From a virus, in the IMG/VR virus record IMGVR_UViG_3300045993_001033, positions 1 through 35,803 of that record: a stretch of DNA of 35,803 nt, one strand, 5' to 3'. The position numbers were made by a program, and so were the translations under genes. This document shows positions 1 to 28,397 of the stretch, in pieces. The stretch's first letter is position 1, and the number at the start of each line of letters is the position of its first letter. A model generated the notes under the pieces. That model had not been told where the DNA came from, made no database searches, and was given only the letters and a program-made list of their open reading frames with translations.

Positions 1-837
1 GCAAAAAACGGTGGAGCAAAATCCTATGAAGACGCACGTTTCTGGGAAGCCCAAACCGATAAAACAGGTAACGGAAGTTTCGTAATCCGTTTCCTCACAC
101 AGAAGGATGGAGAAGACCTGCCATGGGCAAAAGTCTTTACCCGCGGATTCAAGGGTCCATCCGGAAAATGGTATGTTGAGAACTGTCTCTCCACTATCGG
201 TCAAGACGATCCAGTTGGTGCTTATGCATCCAAGATCTGGAATCTCGGCGGTAAAGAGAATGAAGACCTCGCTCGCGTTTACAAGCGCAAGTTGACCTAC
301 ATCTCCAACATCATGGTCATTTCTGACCCAACAAATCCTGCCAACAACGGTAAAGTATTCCTTTACAAGTATGGCAAGAAGATTCATGACAAGATTCTGT
401 CTCTCATGCAGCCAGAATTTGAAGACGAATCACCAGTAAATCCTTTCGATTTCTGGACAGGCGCCGACTTCAAACTCAAGATTCGCCAGGTTGAGGGTTA
501 CCGCAACTATGACAAGTCTGAGTTCGTTGAGCCAAAGGCAATCGCTTCTTCCGACGACGAGATTGAAAAGATCTATGCATCTGTTTACTCGCTCCTCGAG
601 TTCACCGATCCAAAGAACTTCAAGCCTTATGCCGAGCTCGAGGCAAAGATGAAGGCCGTCCTTGGCGACCAGGCAATTGCTCCTGAGACTGCAGAGGAAC
701 TCGCAACTAAGGTTGAGACTGCAAAGCCAGTTGGCAAGGTTGCTACAGCTCCTGAAAAGGAAGTTGCTCCTGCTCCTGCCGCAGGTGATGAAGATAGCGA
801 AGACCTCGAGTATTTCGCTAAGCTCGCTAAGAGCTAA
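1..837 (+). CDS. 32: Single-stranded DNA-binding protein gp32 (5' end outside window)
   Basis: This is the C-terminal 278 residues of a T4 gp32-type protein, which coats single-stranded DNA during replication, recombination and repair. The frame is open from base 1, so the start lies upstream. The core resembles T4 gp32 in order: an FxxxxxGNGSFVIRFL segment, GKWYVENC, the KRKLTYISNIMVISDP strand, NNGKVFLYKYGKKIHDKI, and GADFKLKIRQVEGYRNYDKS. The C-terminal tail is rich in Ala, Pro, Glu and Asp and ends in an acidic patch, as expected for the protein-interaction tail. The zinc site is degraded: of the T4 ligands His64, Cys77, Cys87 and Cys90, only the Cys in ENC remains, with Arg, Asp and Gly aligning to the others. 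A rho-independent terminator follows directly. Confidence 0.95.
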   Translation, partial: AKNGGAKSYEDARFWEAQTDKTGNGSFVIRFLTQKDGEDLPWAKVFTRGFKGPSGKWYVENCLSTIGQDDPVGAYASKIWNLGGKENEDLARVYKRKLTYISNIMVISDPTNPANNGKVFLYKYGKKIHDKILSLMQPEFEDESPVNPFDFWTGADFKLKIRQVEGYRNYDKSEFVEPKAIASSDDEIEKIYASVYSLLEFTDPKNFKPYAELEAKMKAVLGDQAIAPETAEELATKVETAKPVGKVATAPEKEVAPAPAAGDEDSEDLEYFAKLAKS

Positions 838-951: not shown

Positions 952-1215
952 ATGAGCACCAAAATTACATGGTATCGAAGCCCAGATTATGCGCTGATTG
1001 CATTACTCGTCGCCGACACCGCAAGTCTTACAGTGATTCTCGTCGCTAAAGACGGTCTCAGTTATGAAGTGCTTAGCACCAAATACAACGCGCTTCGAGT
1101 CACGGGCACTCTTGAAAATCAAATCGAGTTCGCGAAGGAGGCAGCCATCGTGAAGCTAAAAGCCATCGTCGGAGCTCTTGCCTTTGCTCTCATCTCTACC
1201 GATATCAGCAAATGA
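952..1215 (+). CDS. Small early protein, function unknown
   Basis: An 87-residue protein that I do not recognise. It is rich in Ala, Leu, Val and Ile, with alternating hydrophobic stretches (around residues 14-32 and 66-82) but no charged-flanked membrane segment that I would call confidently. The ATG start is fixed by the early promoter, which ends 6 nt upstream. Its stop overlaps the start of the amidoligase-like gene in an ATGA junction, so the two are probably co-transcribed and translationally coupled. It could be an accessory protein for the enzyme, but that rests on position only. Confidence 0.75.
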   Translation: MSTKITWYRSPDYALIALLVADTASLTVILVAKDGLSYEVLSTKYNALRVTGTLENQIEFAKEAAIVKLKAIVGALAFALISTDISK

Positions 1216-2177
1216 AGAAGAACTATTCAATCTGGTCCGCCTCTGGCTATCCAACAACTCTTGGATACGAGCACGCACGCATTCCTGCAAACATGTCGAT
1301 AACGAAGGAGTTGATGGATGTAGTCATGCGTGCGTCCAAATTTATTGACGAAACGTTCATCGAGACAGACACTTACAAAAAACTGGTAGCCGATAGCGAG
1401 GGTGGCAAATACGAATGTGGTGCACTAGAGTTTGCATCATCCATCATCAAAAAACCCGAGGACTTAACGACATTCTACAAATACGTTGAGAGTCTTTTCA
1501 AAACCGCTGGGCGGGTTGCGAAGTGTAAGTTCGTTGCAAACACTGAAACACCAACTCATTACGTTGAGGGTGGTGGCGGTCACATCCATCTTGGCTGCGA
1601 TACTGGTTGCGGCTCTAATCATGCAGTTCGCCTTGCAAATAAGATCATCGTATTTCTCCTAAACAACCCGACCATCCCCTGGTTCATGTCTGAATGGTGT
1701 GATGATGACGTATGTGTCTCCACATTTTATCACAGCATCCTGAAATACTTCGGCGCCGGCGAAATTCCTCTTACGACCAACATGATATGGGCGCATCTCG
1801 ATCATCAATCTTCCGGCTGGGGAATGGGACCGGCGCAATCAAGATTGCAGGGAGCGATTAAGAATCCAATGCCGACCGTTGAGATTCGCTGCTTCCAATC
1901 TCCGACTTCACTGGAAAATCTTCATGACAACGCCGATATGGCAATGAAGATTTTCATGCATGCGCAGTATCATTCCACGCCTCCTCTTCGATTCTCTTCA
2001 GTTAAGGAGATGAAGAAGTTCTACAAGACGCATGACCCCATCAAAGAGTTCAATTTAGTTCTCGCCACGCTCGGTCTTGAACGCAAGCGATACTCAAAGT
2101 ATTTGGCAAACTATCGTCGTCGACTGCGTGATGGCACTCTCTTCCCCACAAACTCTGATGAGGATGACGACTATTAA
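1212..2177 (+). CDS. Amidoligase-like enzyme (COOH-NH2 ligase family)
   Basis: A 321-residue protein with features of the amidoligase family, distant relatives of glutamine synthetase that join a carboxylate to an amine using ATP. Visible motifs are an N-terminal acidic strand with Glu73 in CGALEFAS, a glycine-rich GGGGHIHLG at about 120-128 (the family GxHxH metal/nucleotide site), and TVEIRCF at about 222-228 (the family E-x-R strand). The C terminus is basic and then acidic (DEDDDY). The start overlaps the preceding small gene by ATGA and has no Shine-Dalgarno sequence. Its end overlaps the convergent minus-strand gene by 4 bp. The substrate is unknown. Family assignment is by motif only. 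Confidence 0.7.
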   Translation: MKKNYSIWSASGYPTTLGYEHARIPANMSITKELMDVVMRASKFIDETFIETDTYKKLVADSEGGKYECGALEFASSIIKKPEDLTTFYKYVESLFKTAGRVAKCKFVANTETPTHYVEGGGGHIHLGCDTGCGSNHAVRLANKIIVFLLNNPTIPWFMSEWCDDDVCVSTFYHSILKYFGAGEIPLTTNMIWAHLDHQSSGWGMGPAQSRLQGAIKNPMPTVEIRCFQSPTSLENLHDNADMAMKIFMHAQYHSTPPLRFSSVKEMKKFYKTHDPIKEFNLVLATLGLERKRYSKYLANYRRRLRDGTLFPTNSDEDDDY

Positions 2178-2713
2178 GGCGTCGCGACAGGATCTTTGTC
2201 CTTGACAGACAGACGAAGGTCGTGTTCGATATCAGCAAAGACATCGAGGACCTCACCCTTAAACTTCTTGTAGCGCTCTAGAATTTCTGCAGAGGCTGAG
2301 GGCTGATCACCCTTTTCCGTTTTCTGGAAGGTGATGTCAAGTTTCTCCATGTCGGTAGTAATCTCTTTGATCACGGCATCAAGTTTGGAGGTGAGGAGGT
2401 TCTTATACTTCTCATTCTGCGCGAGCTGACCTGAAATGGAACCGCCTCTGATCTTCATCAGACCCTTCTGAATGTCTTTCGTGTTACCACTGAATGTGCC
2501 ACGAGCAGTCAGTGCTGCTCCGTGAACCTGCTTTGAAACACCCTTGGCTGCGCCATGTGCGCCCGAAACTCTGGACTTCAGTCTGTCAACGAGACCTTCA
2601 ACGATCGCGTAACGCTTACCCTCAAAGATAAAGAAGGTCTTGCCTTCTGACGTGGCTGTCTCTGCGAGACGGAGAAACTGTTCTTGGAGGACTGGTGAAA
2701 GTGTGTTAAGCAT
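2174..2713 (-). CDS. Late-expressed protein of unknown function
   Basis: A 179-residue protein that I do not recognise. It has a short hydrophobic/aromatic strand region (around residues 25-38, KTFFIFEGKRYAIVEG), then a Gly/Ala/Ser-rich linker, then a mostly helical, charged C-terminal half likely to form coiled coil. It is the last gene of the minus-strand late block, after the tape measure gene, and has its own late promoter (TAAATA at 2719-2724, 5 nt from ATG). Position suggests a virion or assembly role. Its last 4 bases overlap the end of the convergent amidoligase-like gene. Confidence 0.75.
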   Translation of the reverse strand: MLNTLSPVLQEQFLRLAETATSEGKTFFIFEGKRYAIVEGLVDRLKSRVSGAHGAAKGVSKQVHGAALTARGTFSGNTKDIQKGLMKIRGGSISGQLAQNEKYKNLLTSKLDAVIKEITTDMEKLDITFQKTEKGDQPSASAEILERYKKFKGEVLDVFADIEHDLRLSVKDKDPVATP

Positions 2714-6144: not shown

Positions 6145-7674
6145 GATGCGGACGTCTGACAGTTTCATTTTATATGGATCAATGTCGCCGAAAAGTATCT
6201 TTCTAACAGCCATGGCATCATCTGAAACGTCTCCTGAGTAGAGGAACTTTCCACCCTGCTTCTTTGCAAACCTGATCACGCGCTGATAGAGCTTGGTGCC
6301 AATTCCCTGCCTCTGATATTTCTTATTGACCTCGAGCCATTCGATGGACAGATCGTTATCACCAGCCTGACGATAGTCTGCATCACGAGCAGGAATAAGG
6401 CGTGCAACGCCTACTTCTTTCCCACCCAATAGCGCTCGAATAACCCATAGATCGTTGCCTTCATCCTCACCCCTTTCTTTGGCTGTAGTGAATGTAAGAC
6501 CTGCAGGTGCGACTGACTCTGACAACTCCTTCATGAGAGGGGCAGCCTTCATTTCAGGAGTAAGATCACGTGCTCTCATTCCACGAGGGAAGAGATGAAC
6601 CTCCATCTTTACCTTTGGACCGTAGAGTTCTTTAAGAGCAGCAGCACGATGTCTTCCATCATGTGAAGTAATCTGCCACGAAGAACGATCCGCGTTCCAT
6701 TCGACGTTGAAGAACGGTTGACCAAATCCTTTACCGCTCTTGATCGCATCCTTCAGAAAGTTTATGGTGATCGCATCCTCCCTTGAACCATCCATTGGAA
6801 TAGCCAATTCAAGGAACTGATCAGGTGTCATCTCCCTTTTGAAGCCGCGATAATCAATTTCCTGGTTATATGGAACTGCACCAACCCCGTCCTTCGCATC
6901 GAACTTTACTGCCTCTGTCATGCTCGATAGCTGTCTAAGCTGTGCGACAGTGATGCCAAGTTTATCTGCGATTGCATGGACCTTGGAGTATGGAGTATCA
7001 GCGGTAACCGTCTTTAGGATCTGCTTCTGTTCTGGTGACATCATGTGAATGATATCCGCGTACCGATCTTTCTTAACGACTACTGGCTTCTTGCCACCAA
7101 CAATTGCCTTCACCTCGTCGTAGGTATTGGTTCTCTTATCGTAGTCGAGCTTATCAGAATATTGTGGGAGTGCATTGTCGAATGCGTATTCTTCCACCTT
7201 CCCACCAAAATATCTAACCACATCAAGCGTGGACTCAAACACCTGATTAGAAAGTTCTGACCATGAATCTTTCCAGATTGAAATGACCTTAGAGACCGTC
7301 CAAATTCTTCCTGTAACTGGAGCAAACTTCTCTCTGATAAAATCACGTGGCGATCCAAATGTTGGGATCTTCAGGGATGGATTCGAAATGAATGTTAGAA
7401 AGTCTTCATATGAACCTGTCACAGCGATATCAGGAAACTTCGAAAGCTGCGTCGCCAATGCCTTTCCCTGGTTGTCTGCTGACCTCTTCGATACTGCATC
7501 ATTGATCAACTTGAGTTGAGCGAAGAGCTCAACGTGGGTGGTGGCGGAGCCGAGGTCGATGAGCTGAAATGTATTCCAACATGCGAAGGTGTGGGCATCG
7601 GCGGCGGTGAACGCCACTGGTTTCTTCGTCTTCGTCAGGTCTGGGTTCTCGAGGAACTGTTTAAAGGTCTTCAT
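6142..7674 (-). CDS. Probable internal head protein with ParB-like and GNAT acetyltransferase domains
   Basis: A 510-residue, three-part protein. Residues 1-12 (MKTFKQFLENPD) resemble the capsid-targeting peptides of T4 internal head proteins such as IPIII (MKTYQEFIAE). Residues about 15-245 form a module found four times in this window: a start like ADAHTFACWNTFQLID, then GRIWTVSKVISIWKDSWSE, MMSPEQKQILK and a helix-turn-helix-like ADKLGITVAQLRQLS. Residues about 255-375 carry a ParB/Srx-like DGRHRAAAL (about 339-347). Residues about 390-500 look like a GNAT acetyltransferase, with EVNKKYQRQGIGTKLY containing the acetyl-CoA-binding QRQGIG. The ATG overlaps the upstream stop (ATGA). I infer delivery with the DNA as a T4 Alt-like effector; this is not shown directly. 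Confidence 0.72.
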   Translation of the reverse strand: MKTFKQFLENPDLTKTKKPVAFTAADAHTFACWNTFQLIDLGSATTHVELFAQLKLINDAVSKRSADNQGKALATQLSKFPDIAVTGSYEDFLTFISNPSLKIPTFGSPRDFIREKFAPVTGRIWTVSKVISIWKDSWSELSNQVFESTLDVVRYFGGKVEEYAFDNALPQYSDKLDYDKRTNTYDEVKAIVGGKKPVVVKKDRYADIIHMMSPEQKQILKTVTADTPYSKVHAIADKLGITVAQLRQLSSMTEAVKFDAKDGVGAVPYNQEIDYRGFKREMTPDQFLELAIPMDGSREDAITINFLKDAIKSGKGFGQPFFNVEWNADRSSWQITSHDGRHRAAALKELYGPKVKMEVHLFPRGMRARDLTPEMKAAPLMKELSESVAPAGLTFTTAKERGEDEGNDLWVIRALLGGKEVGVARLIPARDADYRQAGDNDLSIEWLEVNKKYQRQGIGTKLYQRVIRFAKKQGGKFLYSGDVSDDAMAVRKILFGDIDPYKMKLSDVRI

Positions 7675-8327
7675 TCGGCGGAAATCTTTGCATTGAGCTG
7701 CGCAACAGTGAGACCGAGTTTGTCGGCAATGTCTGCCTTCTTAGCATATGGAGTATCGGCAGTAAGATTCTTGAGGATGAACTTCACCTGAGGATCCATG
7801 ACGTGGGCCTTGTCAGATGGCTTAGAGATAGTCTGCGACTGACCAAGCATTGCAACCACTTGATCGTATGTTTCTAATTCATCCTCTTCTGCGTAGCCTC
7901 TTCCATTATCGTAGAGACATTTTTCTGGATCCATTCGATAGAACTTCAGAATCTTTTTGATGTTTTCAAATTGAGATACGCTCACATCTGACCAGCGGTT
8001 TCTCCAGATTGAAATAATTTTGCTGCCCTTCCACAGTCTTCCCTCCACTATATCCTTACGACGTCTGTCGATCTGAGCTGCATCGTGATGGTCTCTCCAT
8101 TCTTGAGCATCCTTTTCCGTTCCATATGGATAATCAAACGCGCCAAATGGGTTAGCTTTAGGTCCGCCATTTATGAGAAACTTATGGATCTCATCGTGAG
8201 TATCAGCAACCACGGTTGCAATTGCAAACTTATCGAATGCAGAGAAAGCAACGGCACCTACATCGCGCCAATGATGGCCAGCAACCCCATCTGGATCCTC
8301 TGCAAGAAATTCTTTGAAGGTCTTCAT
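7671..8327 (-). CDS. Probable internal head protein, single-module member
   Basis: A 218-residue paralogue of the N-terminal module of the following gene. It begins MKTFKEFLAEDPDG, where LAE fits the (I/L)xE rule for T4 prohead protease cleavage. The module elements follow: VAFSAFDKFAIATVV, GSKIISIWRNRWSDVSVSQF, ETYDQVVAML, MDPQVKFILKNLTADTPY and ADKLGLTVAQL. A longer open frame reaches 8474, but the ATG at 8327 makes an ATGA overlap with the upstream gene and restores the shared N-terminal peptide, so I chose it. There are no extra domains. Function unknown. Confidence 0.78.
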   Translation of the reverse strand: MKTFKEFLAEDPDGVAGHHWRDVGAVAFSAFDKFAIATVVADTHDEIHKFLINGGPKANPFGAFDYPYGTEKDAQEWRDHHDAAQIDRRRKDIVEGRLWKGSKIISIWRNRWSDVSVSQFENIKKILKFYRMDPEKCLYDNGRGYAEEDELETYDQVVAMLGQSQTISKPSDKAHVMDPQVKFILKNLTADTPYAKKADIADKLGLTVAQLNAKISAE

Positions 8328-8920
8328 ATCATCTTCTGCGAATCCATCCAAACTTTCTCCTTCGAAGCTCCAGTGAAGGACTCGCTTGGCAAGTAGACAG
8401 CCATTTCCCAGTCGCTCGCTGGAACAATCGAGAACGGTGAGCGCACGTGATCCAAAAGATATCTTTTCCAGCAAGGTTTGAACTGACGATACTTCTGCGA
8501 AGAGGAGAGAATGTCGTATGACATGTTGATCTTCGTTGACTCGTCGAATCGCTTGTTGGATGAGATGTCGTAGAGACGGGATAGAAGTAGTGCGCGAACA
8601 GGAGGAGAGATGTAATGGAGATTCAGACCATAGAAGCCACCCTCGGCTGGCTGGACAACCATTGTGAGTGGGAACTTATCCCAATACTCCATCGAGTCGG
8701 CAGTCTTCGCGTCATAGAAGAACATGTGCATCGAACCAATTGAAGGTCTCGAACGCACGATCAGGGACGGATCTCTCAGAAGGGTATTACGATTAAGAGA
8801 TGAGATGTTCTTGAGACGATTCTGAAACCACTGTCTTGAAGCCTGTGAGCGAGCACGAAAGCGATTAGCTTTGACTTCTGCTTGTACTTTTTGGAATAGA
8901 GACGGAGGTTGAACGGCCAT
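8324..8920 (-). CDS. Conserved T4-like phage protein, role unclear
   Basis: A 198-residue protein with a basic N-terminal helix, then FYDAKTADSMEYWDKFPL and GGFYGLNLHYISPPVRALLL. This pattern (a phrase on 'pathway of pressure' YWDKFP followed by GFxGLNxHY) is one I associate with conserved hypothetical proteins of T4-like myoviruses, often near head-completion and baseplate genes; I cannot name the T4 counterpart with confidence. It has its own late promoter 4 nt before ATG and is followed, with ATGA overlap, by the internal-head-like genes. A virion or packaging-related role is likely by context. Confidence 0.72.
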   Translation of the reverse strand: MAVQPPSLFQKVQAEVKANRFRARSQASRQWFQNRLKNISSLNRNTLLRDPSLIVRSRPSIGSMHMFFYDAKTADSMEYWDKFPLTMVVQPAEGGFYGLNLHYISPPVRALLLSRLYDISSNKRFDESTKINMSYDILSSSQKYRQFKPCWKRYLLDHVRSPFSIVPASDWEMAVYLPSESFTGASKEKVWMDSQKMI

Positions 8921-15234: not shown

Positions 15235-16576
15235 AGCAAGAACAGGGGTCATCCCATCCACGCACCGCATCGTCTCACCTACCTCGTATTCGATTCGCTC
15301 GATTGAATTGACGAATCATCGAGGAGAGGTCGTGAACATTGAAGCCATTGTAGCAGACTTCACGATCCAGGAGTCTCTCTACTCCCCGACCCTGGTTCTG
15401 AAAATGAACTTCAAGGACTCGGCCAACTTCATCGAGCAGTATGAGCTCTGCGGTCAGGAGATAATCGACATCTCTCTCATGAGAGAACCTGGAAACGACA
15501 AGGGATCCTTCTCGGATCGTGAGCCGTTCTCCCATCGCTTCTACGTTACGGAATATCCTCTCTTTGCCCGACCTCAGGAACACGTCCAGGTCTTCTCGCT
15601 CATGGCCGTGTCGGAGCATGCCTTCATCTCCAACTTGAAGTTCATATCACGGGCAGTCTCGGGCAATGTCTCTGATATCATCCGTTCGATCCTCGTGAAC
15701 GATCTGAAGGTAGATGATAACTCCATTTACTTCCCATGGGATGTGCCTGGGATAGGCGACCATCGCTGCGTGTCGTCCTTCACTGGAATCATTCCATACA
15801 TGAACCCTCTCTCGGCAGTGGAATGGCTCCGAACAGGCATGAACGATTCTTCCCTCTCTCCATTCTTCTTCTGGGAGTCTCTGAGAGGAATCAACATCAT
15901 TTCACAGACGAATCTAACCACCTCGAAGCTGTATCGAACCTACTACGACCATCGAATCAATCTTCAGAGGGCCCATTCCGAGGATGACTACCTTCTCCAG
16001 GCGTGCACGATCTCTTCCATTGCTTCGAACCTGAAGATGTCGAAGATGTTCCAGGCCAAGGACGGAGCTTTCGGATCTGTCGTGGACTTCGTAGACATCT
16101 CGGAAAAGAAGGTCATCCGACAGAACTTTGCGTACAATTCAGAATTTAAGGGCATGCCAAGTCTGGAAAAGTATCCATCCATCTCGGACAAATTCAAGAT
16201 TGACGGAAAGTCTCTGTCAGAACTTGAATCGAATCGCTCGACCCTGCCCCTCTCTTCCCATAACTACGCCGGAAAGAACTTCGAGAGCCTCCAGCTTCTC
16301 TCATATCTCCCGTGCAAGTCTTTCTCGGAAAACCTTGAATCGATCACCCATGACATGAAGGTTCCCGGGGACTTCGACCTTAATCCAGGAAAGAGGATCA
16401 ACCTTCAGATCCCAAAGCCGATCGATACAGCCTACATCACGGACGGAGCTTCTAAATATGATCAGGTAGCTTCCGGAAACTATCTCGTAACTTCGGTCAT
16501 CCATGAATTCTCCTCTACATACTACTGCACCGTCCGCATCAAGAAAGATGCACTCTCCTTCGACCTGAACAAATGA
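15227..16576 (+). CDS. 27: Baseplate hub protein gp27
   Basis: A 449-residue protein of the gp27 hub type, which forms the trimeric base that holds the gp5 spike. Supporting parts are the N-terminal YSIRSIELTNHRGEVVNIEA with ADFTIQESLYSPTLVLKM, a central FFFWESLRGINIISQ and the C-terminal KRINLQIPKP and SGNYLVTSVIHEFSSTYYCT, typical of phage hub folds. T4 gp27 has 391 residues. It overlaps gp53 by 8 bp and gp5 by 4 bp. Assignment combines family-like motifs with position directly before gp5. Confidence 0.85.
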   Translation: MPEARTGVIPSTHRIVSPTSYSIRSIELTNHRGEVVNIEAIVADFTIQESLYSPTLVLKMNFKDSANFIEQYELCGQEIIDISLMREPGNDKGSFSDREPFSHRFYVTEYPLFARPQEHVQVFSLMAVSEHAFISNLKFISRAVSGNVSDIIRSILVNDLKVDDNSIYFPWDVPGIGDHRCVSSFTGIIPYMNPLSAVEWLRTGMNDSSLSPFFFWESLRGINIISQTNLTTSKLYRTYYDHRINLQRAHSEDDYLLQACTISSIASNLKMSKMFQAKDGAFGSVVDFVDISEKKVIRQNFAYNSEFKGMPSLEKYPSISDKFKIDGKSLSELESNRSTLPLSSHNYAGKNFESLQLLSYLPCKSFSENLESITHDMKVPGDFDLNPGKRINLQIPKPIDTAYITDGASKYDQVASGNYLVTSVIHEFSSTYYCTVRIKKDALSFDLNK

Positions 16577-17886
16577 TCACGCCATATACCTTCTTCACGG
16601 GAGTAGTTGAAGACATCCTTGATCCGGAAGAGATGGGTCGAGTCAGAGTCCGAGTCTTTGGATTCCATTCACCTTCCAGGCAGGACATCCCTACCTCCTC
16701 CCTCCCATGGGCAACCCCGCTCCTACCCACCACATCTGCGTCCATGTCAGGGGTCGGTACCTCGGGAACCGGTCTTCTTCCAGGCTCATGGGTCGTCGGG
16801 TTCTTCCGTGACGGAGAGTCAGGCCAGGATCCCCTCATCCTTGGGTCTATCCCGTCCATCTCATCGAGAAGAGACCCGTCGTTGGGGTTCTCAGATCCGA
16901 GCGGTGTCAATCCCCGTCACCCGGGAGAAGTAGACACACCGCGTTCTGCGCGGTCCTCGTTCCGAGACCATCCAGCCTATACTGGAAAGCTCGACACAAG
17001 AGTCACCTCCATCCCAACTGCCGTCCCGCCTTCCATACCATCCGTGGCTGTACCAGAGCCTGCCGCGTACTACGCGCGAAAGACATGGGACTCCCCCGAC
17101 CCGGCCGACACGACTCGTCCGATCTATCCCTTCAATTCCGTGGAAGAATCATCCGGAGGACATGTAGAAGAAGTCGATGACACCCCGGGCTACGAACGCA
17201 TCTCGACCACCCATCGCTCCGGCGCCTTCCGTCAATTTCTATCCGACGGTTCCGAGGTTCTCTCAATAAGAGGAAAGAGATTTGTTATTATCTCAAAAGA
17301 CGATAACGTATACATTCGTGGTTCCTGTAATATCACGGTAGACGGAGATTGCAGACATCTTGTTAAAGGTAATCTCCACGTAGAGGTAGAGGGTAACTAT
17401 ACAGAAAACATCAAAGGCTCAAAACAAGTAAAGGTAGGACATTCCCATTCCATGGAAATTGGTCAGGACTGGGGTCTCAATATCGGAGAAGGATCCCTCC
17501 TTAGAGTAGGTAAAGATGTATCTGAGATGGTAATAGGCTCCCAGAGTACGAATATCGGAAAAGACTACGATTTCATTGTGAGTGGTACGCTATCTGACTT
17601 CGTTCTGGGTAACAGGTCCTTTATCACAGGCGGAAACCTCACCGGGGCCGTGGGTGGAGTAACCGGATTAGCTCTGGTCGGAGCCGCCACGATCAAGGGT
17701 GCCGGGATCTCGATCACCGCGACGGATTTCGGAGTGAACGCCACCGGAGCCCTCTCTCTAACCGGAAATGACATTACCCAGACTGCAATAAATTCGTTCT
17801 CGAGTGACGCGGCCTCTCTGAGTCTAACCTCCACCGGCACACCGTTGAGCCTGGTCGGTCCCTCCACCTCTACCTCTATCCCGTAA
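16573..17886 (+). CDS. 5: Baseplate central spike protein gp5 without lysozyme domain
   Basis: A 437-residue spike protein. The N-terminal OB-fold is clear (FFTGVVEDILDPEEMGRVRV, then GSWVVGFFRDGESGQDPLIL at about 75-95). The middle is Pro/Ser/Thr-rich. From about residue 215 a beta-helix of VxGxxxxx-like repeats follows (ITVDGDCRHLVKGNLHVEVE and onward to about 390), as in the T4 gp5 needle. No T4 lysozyme domain is present between them, as in many marine T4-like phages. Codon use shifts inside the gene: the repeat region at about 17265-17600 is richer in AGA, ATA and GTA than its flanks. The start overlaps gp27 by ATGA. Confidence 0.88.
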   Translation: MITPYTFFTGVVEDILDPEEMGRVRVRVFGFHSPSRQDIPTSSLPWATPLLPTTSASMSGVGTSGTGLLPGSWVVGFFRDGESGQDPLILGSIPSISSRRDPSLGFSDPSGVNPRHPGEVDTPRSARSSFRDHPAYTGKLDTRVTSIPTAVPPSIPSVAVPEPAAYYARKTWDSPDPADTTRPIYPFNSVEESSGGHVEEVDDTPGYERISTTHRSGAFRQFLSDGSEVLSIRGKRFVIISKDDNVYIRGSCNITVDGDCRHLVKGNLHVEVEGNYTENIKGSKQVKVGHSHSMEIGQDWGLNIGEGSLLRVGKDVSEMVIGSQSTNIGKDYDFIVSGTLSDFVLGNRSFITGGNLTGAVGGVTGLALVGAATIKGAGISITATDFGVNATGALSLTGNDITQTAINSFSSDAASLSLTSTGTPLSLVGPSTSTSIP

Positions 17887-26582: not shown

Positions 26583-28397
26583 ATGGCCTCTACACTCAAC
26601 GTAACTGAACTTGATTTCGGAAAGATCAAGGAGAACATCAAGAACTATTTCCGTAACTCATCTTCAGCATATGCTGACTGGGACTTTGAAGGTTCGGGCC
26701 TCTCTACGATCATCGACGTTCTTGCCTATAACACCTATTACAACGGCGTTTTGGCACACATGGCGATGAACGAAACATTCCTGGATTCAGCCCAGCTTAG
26801 GCACAACGTAGTTGGTCATGCAAAATTGCTTGGATATGTTCCTCATTCCTATAAGTCCCCATCGGCGGTGATTTCATTGACGTTTGCTGCAGGTGGATCG
26901 GTTCTCCCAATGGAACTTCCAAGAGGTTCGCAGTTTACGACATCGATCGATTCAGTCCAGTATTCCTTTATCACGCTCGAGACATATTCTGCTCCGGCCA
27001 TCGATGACGTCTATTCGTTCCCTTTAGTTGAAATCTTCGAGGGAGCTCTGAAGAAAACGTCTTTCATTGTAGATGAGAACATACTCAATCAGAAATTCGT
27101 CATTCCAGATTCAAATGGGGACATGACGACCCTCATTGTCAACGTACGCGAGAACGCAAAGTCAACCACAACGAGCACGTTCATCGAATTCGCTACGCTT
27201 GCTTCTGCAGATTCCAATTCAGCCATCTATTTCATCTCCGAGAACTACGATGGGAAATATGAGATATCTTTTGGCGACGGCATATTCGGCAAGAAACTTC
27301 CATCTCTTTCAGTCGTCGAGCTCGAGTATCTTGTAACGGCTGGGTCAGGTGCAAATTTTGCAAACTCGTTTTCGTATTCCGGTGGTGGAAGTCCTATCAT
27401 TACAACCGTGTCAGCTTCAACGAACGGTTCCTCCAACGAGAGCATTGAATCTGTTCGCTTTAATGCGCCTCTAGCCCTCGTCGCGCAGAATCGTGCGGTT
27501 ACTGCCGACGACTACAAAGCAATCATTCTTCGCGACTTCGGTGCAGTTGATGCTATCAACGTATGGGGTGGGGAGCAGCAGGTTGTTCCAGAGTACGGTA
27601 AGGTTTTCATTGCGATGAAGCCATCAGGTGGAGATGTTCTTTCAGACACCGAAAAAGCTAGAGTGCTCACGCTTCTGAAGAATCGTAATGTTCTCACGAT
27701 TACACCGATTCTAGTGGATCCTGATTACGTCAACATCTACCTCGATATTGCCTACAAGTACGATTCAAACGCAACAACTCTTCGTATAGGCGAGCTGAAT
27801 ACTCTTGTTGCTTCCGCAGTCTCGACATATTCGGCTAACGAACTGCTTCGATTTGACGGAGTATTCCGTAACTCGAAGCTTCTCAGGGCTGTTGATGCAT
27901 CATCTCCAGCAATTCTGAACTCGGCAGCTCGTGTCTATCTTTACAAGTCAATTTCAATTTCAAACTTCGTTAACGCAAATCTGAACTTTGCAACCAAGAT
28001 TTACGGAGATATTTCCGCCTCCACACCAATCTTGACATCGACGTCATTCATCTATCACGGGTACACAACATTCGTTGGTGATGAACCTCTATCTTCGACT
28101 CGTCGCAATCTGTTCCTATATCGCGTGGATGAATCCGGGAATAAGATCAAACTGCTTCTATCCTGTGGATACGCAACTCCATCAATTGGTGAGGTTGTCA
28201 TTACTGGCTTTTCAGTCGACACTCCTCAAACTCTCCAGATCAACGTTGTTCCAGATTCTTTTGATATCGCACCGAAGAGAGATCAACTCCTCCGCATTGA
28301 CATAAATGCTACAAACATCTTAGGTGAAGTTGATTCGATTGCCGTTGGTGGTTCTTCGGGTGCATCGTCGTATATCACGTTCCCAAGAAGCCGATAA
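26583..28397 (+). CDS. 6: Baseplate wedge protein gp6
   Basis: A 604-residue gp6-type protein (T4 gp6 has 660), the J-like protein that forms the inner baseplate ring. Clear features are the N-terminal GSGLSTIIDVLAYNTYYNGV and LDSAQLRHNVVGHAKLLGYV, the SISFGDGIFGKKL-like strand YEISFGDGIFGKKLPS and the RAVTADDYKAIILRDFGAVD segment. It follows gp25, the conserved wedge order of T4-like phages. Confidence 0.92.
   Translation: MASTLNVTELDFGKIKENIKNYFRNSSSAYADWDFEGSGLSTIIDVLAYNTYYNGVLAHMAMNETFLDSAQLRHNVVGHAKLLGYVPHSYKSPSAVISLTFAAGGSVLPMELPRGSQFTTSIDSVQYSFITLETYSAPAIDDVYSFPLVEIFEGALKKTSFIVDENILNQKFVIPDSNGDMTTLIVNVRENAKSTTTSTFIEFATLASADSNSAIYFISENYDGKYEISFGDGIFGKKLPSLSVVELEYLVTAGSGANFANSFSYSGGGSPIITTVSASTNGSSNESIESVRFNAPLALVAQNRAVTADDYKAIILRDFGAVDAINVWGGEQQVVPEYGKVFIAMKPSGGDVLSDTEKARVLTLLKNRNVLTITPILVDPDYVNIYLDIAYKYDSNATTLRIGELNTLVASAVSTYSANELLRFDGVFRNSKLLRAVDASSPAILNSAARVYLYKSISISNFVNANLNFATKIYGDISASTPILTSTSFIYHGYTTFVGDEPLSSTRRNLFLYRVDESGNKIKLLLSCGYATPSIGEVVITGFSVDTPQTLQINVVPDSFDIAPKRDQLLRIDINATNILGEVDSIAVGGSSGASSYITFPRSR

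Follow-up and report, generated by a model that had tools for sequence, protein, structure and literature searches.

The gp32 encoded at the beginning of the viral DNA analyzed here appears, to judge from its alignment with relatives, to be one more metal-free member of a branch of the family in which absence of the zinc site is common and the state of the site varies between close relatives, and the rare feature that it would add is an arginine in place of the nearly invariant His64. T4 gp32 is a classic zinc-containing single-strand-binding protein. Passages of two papers (PMC3012046, PMC10862658) assign the zinc ligands of T4 gp32 to His64, Cys77, Cys87 and Cys90. The window, by which we mean the whole stretch of 35,803 nt under analysis, is the entire record IMGVR_UViG_3300045993_001033 (completeness unstated), whose first base falls inside the gp32 gene. 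This 5'-truncated gene occupies positions 1..837 of the plus strand in frame 1 and encodes 278 residues followed by a stop, with no earlier stop; the N-terminal cooperativity part lies beyond the contig edge, and about 24 residues are missing, a length taken from relatives. The window protein matches gp32 of T4 and RB69 in phmmer searches with E-values from 1.9e-46 (8gme_A) to 1.3e-44 (1gpc_A) and phrog_224, the single-strand DNA-binding protein, with an E-value of 1.3e-100. It scores 141 bits against the Pfam gp32 profile (PF08804), for which the curated cut-off is 26.8, in agreement with an earlier sequence-only reading of this DNA, according to which the remainder of the domain is conserved. 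The protein is classified as a member of the gp32 family, outside the zinc-binding subclass.

Compared with the gp32 of T4 and RB69, the window protein has no ligands at positions 64, 87 and 90, and its loop is two residues shorter. In phmmer alignments the segment 'TRGFKGPSGKWYVENCLSTIGQDD--PVGAY' of the window stands opposite the ligand-bearing stretch of T4, and the two-residue deletion leaves Cys87 against a gap; multiple alignments put Asp70 at the Cys87 position, directly before an invariant proline. The T4-type set of ligands is incomplete, the aligned residues, all encoded on the plus strand, being Arg48 (CGC, 142..144) for His64, Cys62 (TGT, 184..186) for Cys77, Asp70 (GAT, 208..210) for Cys87 and Gly73 (GGT, 217..219) for Cys90, which bears out, at every coordinate, the replacements described in the sequence-only reading. 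The 278 residues contain a single cysteine (62) and a single histidine (129). That reading had named ligands from the missing N-terminus as the circumstance that would overturn it; in the complete relatives, the part preceding the first window column holds no cysteine in 166 of 169 and no histidine in 164 of 169, and it is unlikely, by analogy with these relatives, that the missing residues complete a zinc site. As aligned, the visible sequence cannot form a site of the T4 type.

In order to place these residues within the family, 353 gp32 loci from viral contigs and 25 phage records were collected; in total, 2,418 phage records contain a gp32 match. The queries that retrieved the loci were the window protein (80) and the gp32 loci L042 (80), L089 (3), L095 (2), L093 (7) and L174 (80); a pattern demanding Cys77 supplied a further 76, and the 25 from phage records were chosen by hand. 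Once the window itself (L001) and identical sequences were set aside, 296 distinct sequences were left, or 297 with the window; loci L355-L365 were added later and lie outside this number. A full zinc site is found in 85 of the 297 sequences and is not full in 212, counts that describe a sample picked by similarity and partly by pattern and that are neither a census nor a frequency in nature, the loci found with L174 inflating the full-site count and the pattern-chosen loci inflating, by design, that of Cys77. When the pattern-chosen loci are excluded, 235 sequences are left; 81 of these carry a complete site, and arginine at position 64 is then confined to the window. With 212 of the 297 sequences lacking a full site, the window is rejected as the sole gp32 devoid of it.

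The states of the four positions, given in the order 64, 77, 87 and 90, are HCCC in 85 sequences, HSDS in 103 and HSDG in 35; a further 59, the window among them, combine Cys77 with Asp87, and 15 show other states. Position 87 is occupied by cysteine (91 sequences) or aspartate (206) and by no third residue, and position 88, which is Pro71 in the window (211..213, plus strand), is proline in 296 of 297. Cys87 and Cys90 occur together in 85 proteins, every one of which has His64 and Cys77 as well; Cys87 is found without Cys90 in six sequences and Cys90 never with Asp87. Position 77 is cysteine in 144 sequences and serine in 148. His64 is kept in 286 of 297 sequences and in 199 of the 206 with Asp87, and therefore seems to be useful beyond zinc binding. 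Arginine at this position is seen only in the window and L247, and lysine only in L227 and L240; all four of these sequences combine Asp87 with Cys77, a number too small for testing. On the tree, L247 and L227 are placed apart from the window. The loop between positions 77 and 87 has 7 residues in all 212 site-less proteins, and in full-site proteins 7 residues in 73, 9 in 7 and 10 in 5. The two-residue deletion was considered as a cause of site loss and rejected, since 73 full-site proteins share the 7-residue loop.

Full-site proteins are found in T2, RB69, KVP40 and other Straboviridae, in cyanophage S-PM2 and in several groups of environmental contigs. Site-less ones are found in Kyanoviridae (Syn33, S-SSM7, S-CAM7, ME01 and a marine single-virus genome), in Ackermannviridae (CBA120 and a Limestonevirus), in the pelagiphages HTVC008M and Mosig, in the Methylophilales phage Melnitz, and in Vibrio phage K362, Campylobacter phage CP30A, Rhizobium phage RHph_I46 and Stenotrophomonas phage BUCT608. 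The site-less Kyanoviridae gp32 of Syn33, HTVC008M, Mosig and Melnitz, about 50-52% identical to that of the window, likewise have a short Asp-Pro loop with neither Cys87 nor Cys90, but they carry His64 and Ser77 where the window has arginine and cysteine. In contrast, S-PM2 and the groups of L042, L111, L133, L254, L260 and L280 (about 45-53% identity) share the short loop of the window and have the histidine and the three cysteines complete.

A tree was built from 100 representatives with the loop columns excluded, four fragments having been removed before clustering to 103 representatives and three long rows (L099, L095 and L093) thereafter. In it, the window falls within a set of 23 site-less rows, with support of 96 and 99 in two trees, and its nearest row is 57% identical over the tree columns. 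The absence of Cys87 and Cys90 is therefore common to this set, while Arg48 and Cys62 are peculiar to the window, the other 22 rows having histidine at position 64 and serine at 77. The alignment with gp32 of related phages that was proposed in the sequence-only reading thus confirms that the window lacks Cys87 and Cys90 and adds that this is common among the sampled relatives. The claim that most of the site had been lost holds insofar as the ligands are absent; set against its own clade, the window shows the reverse at two positions (Arg64 and Cys77 against His64 and Ser77). Nor is the absence special to this phage, given the 212 sequences without a full site. That the core must be stabilized without zinc stands to the extent that no T4-type site is possible and a normal fold is predicted for the core, and does not stand as a special event. 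The earlier interpretation is in this sense partly supported, being correct on zinc with the emphasis off.

On the same tree the minimum number of changes is 7 for the full site, 15 for Cys77 and 3 for His64, and the zinc site has, as these counts suggest, undergone several changes of state within the family. The direction of change is unreadable from counts on an unrooted tree with many weak branches. It is possible, although we consider it rather unlikely, that the site was gained repeatedly and that the window retains an ancestral metal-free state instead of having undergone loss: the 7 changes required over the 100 rows when gains are allowed compare with 24 losses when a single old site can only be lost, and distant groups (Ackermannviridae, Campylobacter and Rhizobium phages) are site-less. 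Nevertheless, three cysteines are more easily lost than gained, a scattered distribution could also result from recombination of the short loop, and the unrooted tree with its weak branches does not give the direction that this explanation needs. The grouping of the site-bearing, short-loop, marine-type proteins into one clade (7 representatives) was rejected on a quick tree by an AU test with p 0.0035, a value that is optimistic because the group was chosen after a first tree. Independent-pair tests of Cys77 against the Cys87/Cys90 pair gave no significance, the supported pairs being too few.

The structure prediction against T4 gp32 that had been suggested along with the sequence-only reading was run, and the AF2 model of the window protein (70 sequences) keeps the gp32 fold, with a mean pLDDT of 86.4 and blocks of residues 11-220 at 94-98. 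Its top matches in Foldseek and VIA-align are the cores of RB69 and T4 gp32, with 210 residues aligned to 2a1k_A (Z 25.2, rmsd 1.7) and to 1gpc (Z 24.5, rmsd 2.0), and matches other than gp32 are weak (Z 5.4 and less). The model contains an OB-fold core like that of 1gpc and 2a1k, corresponding to residues 8-223 (22..669, plus strand), and the window protein shares family and fold with the T4 and RB69 structures (1gpc, 2a1k, 2atq, 8gme). An acidic C-terminal tail (784..834, plus strand) ends in a conserved motif of the DDDxLSYFxKLA type, according to the consensus of relatives, and residues 267-277 are predicted to form a helix. The aromatic residues at T4 positions 115, 137, 183 and 186, which presumably touch DNA, are kept as tyrosines in the window. 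In contrast to T4 and RB69, Tyr84 is missing from the window, Tyr99 is replaced by tryptophan and Tyr106 by alanine, and passages of PMC535899 place these three tyrosines in the DNA-binding surface of T4 gp32. They are mostly replaced among the 297 sequences (a gap in 285, tryptophan in 279 and alanine or valine in 281, respectively), in full-site and site-less proteins alike, and correspond to the region 208-280 of the window.

In the model a helix spanning residues 71-81 begins at Pro71, immediately after Asp70. L254, a protein with the full site and a loop of equal length, is modelled with the same set of elements: its helix 93-102 starts from the same proline, there preceded by a cysteine, and its scores against 2a1k_A and 1gpc (Z 25.6 and 24.8) equal those of the window. 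The backbone therefore seems not to depend on which of the two residues is present. Metals are not represented in AF2 models, which often show the backbone of a metal-bound state regardless, and a confident loop is therefore no proof of stability without zinc. Aspartate followed by proline at the start of a helix is a classic cap, and with the same backbone for either residue the zinc knot and the aspartate cap would therefore be two closures of one loop. Based on these models, we hypothesize that the aspartate at the Cys87 position probably caps the helix beginning at the invariant proline and takes the place of the zinc knot. For most relatives that lack the site, a polar cluster completed by His64 and Ser77 is possible; for the window, a pairing of Arg48 with Asp70 is predicted as probable. 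Overall, we consider it fairly likely that the window protein has a metal-free loop closed by an Asp-Pro cap, in which an absence shared with its clade is combined with a His-to-Arg change of its own, as opposed to a site in fresh decay.

A different metal site, in which His64, Asp87 and Ser77 or Cys77 (Cys62, Asp70 and His129 in the window) would bind zinc or some other divalent ion, seems improbable to us. Aspartate is able to act as a metal ligand, and the retention of histidine in nearly all Asp87 sequences would be explicable if the two residues still shared a metal; however, the window has arginine at the histidine position, which leaves only Cys62 and Asp70 as possible ligands, its His129 lies within helix 126-136, another element of the model, and most Asp87 proteins have serine at position 77 (143 of 206). 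That Arg48 is a sequencing or assembly error, the window truly reading His/Cys/Asp/Gly, is very improbable, even though CAC to CGC is one transition, the window is known from a single contig and histidine is seen in the remaining 22 rows of its set, since the reading frame is unbroken and conserved elsewhere and a basic residue also stands at position 64 in three distinct contig proteins (arginine in L247, lysine in L227 and L240); such an error would leave the verdict on zinc unaffected, because Cys87 and Cys90 are absent anyway.

Since the site is missing from a large part of the gp32 family, the fold does not generally require zinc, and relatives that differ in the site form natural pairs on which the contribution of the metal to stability, to DNA affinity or to the self-control of translation can be tested. 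Of more interest than the absence of the site from the window is its scattered occurrence among relatives, in an all-or-none manner. A speculative reading, which we put forward tentatively, is that of an all-or-none switch. In this reading, a Cys3His knot and a metal-free His/Ser/Asp-Pro cap would have replaced each other time and again among close relatives of T4-type phages that come from water samples and from cyanobacteria, whether through mutation or through recombination of an 80-base stretch, perhaps in step with the amount of zinc that a host can afford for a protein produced in high copy number; the window, with its Arg-Asp pair, would represent a third solution. The link between zinc supply and the state of the site is a conjecture. 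Bacterial ribosomal proteins, with a metal site formed by cysteines, offer a parallel, the site being present or absent in relatives. Zinc-binding and zinc-independent versions of these proteins are described in PMC5912738. In their case, paralogs that do not need zinc accompany the zinc-binding ones and are employed under zinc shortage, whereas gp32 is compared here by the state of the site alone.

Regarding published work, the reference list of PMC535899 includes, in connection with translational self-control, a publication from 1991 that describes the zinc domain as essential in its title. An Rfam scan of 18 gp32 loci for the translational-control pseudoknot returned one tRNA only, and T2 and RB69 were unmatched too, so that nothing follows from it. 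No account of a gp32 without a zinc site was found in the open literature by title or start of abstract, a scope outside which most subscription papers fall, so that the trait may already be known, and passages of PMC3014915, PMC535899, PMC11551737, PMC10862658, PMC3012046, PMC7824862, PMC2984593 and PMC12893549 do not mention one.

Several other genes of the window were annotated. A gp6-like baseplate wedge protein (26583-28397, plus strand) is closest to those of the phages Melnitz (Methylophilales) and HTVC008M (Pelagibacter), and gp32 of HTVC008M, Mosig and Melnitz was examined because this protein is closest to those phages. Its identity of 36-37% places the window phage far from the phages in the collection. 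No PHROG match at an E-value of 0.001 was obtained for three proteins, of 321 (1212-2177, plus strand), 179 (2174-2713, minus strand) and 267 residues (7671-8474, minus strand). A gp5-like baseplate hub (16573-17886, plus strand) matches only the OB and C-terminal trimerisation domains of Pfam at an E-value of 0.001, with no match to a lysozyme domain. Finally, a protein of 510 residues (6145-7674, minus strand), the gene of which lies next to a tail-tube gene, includes a GNAT acetyltransferase domain close to the C-terminus (Pfam Acetyltransf_1, E-value 1.3e-10).
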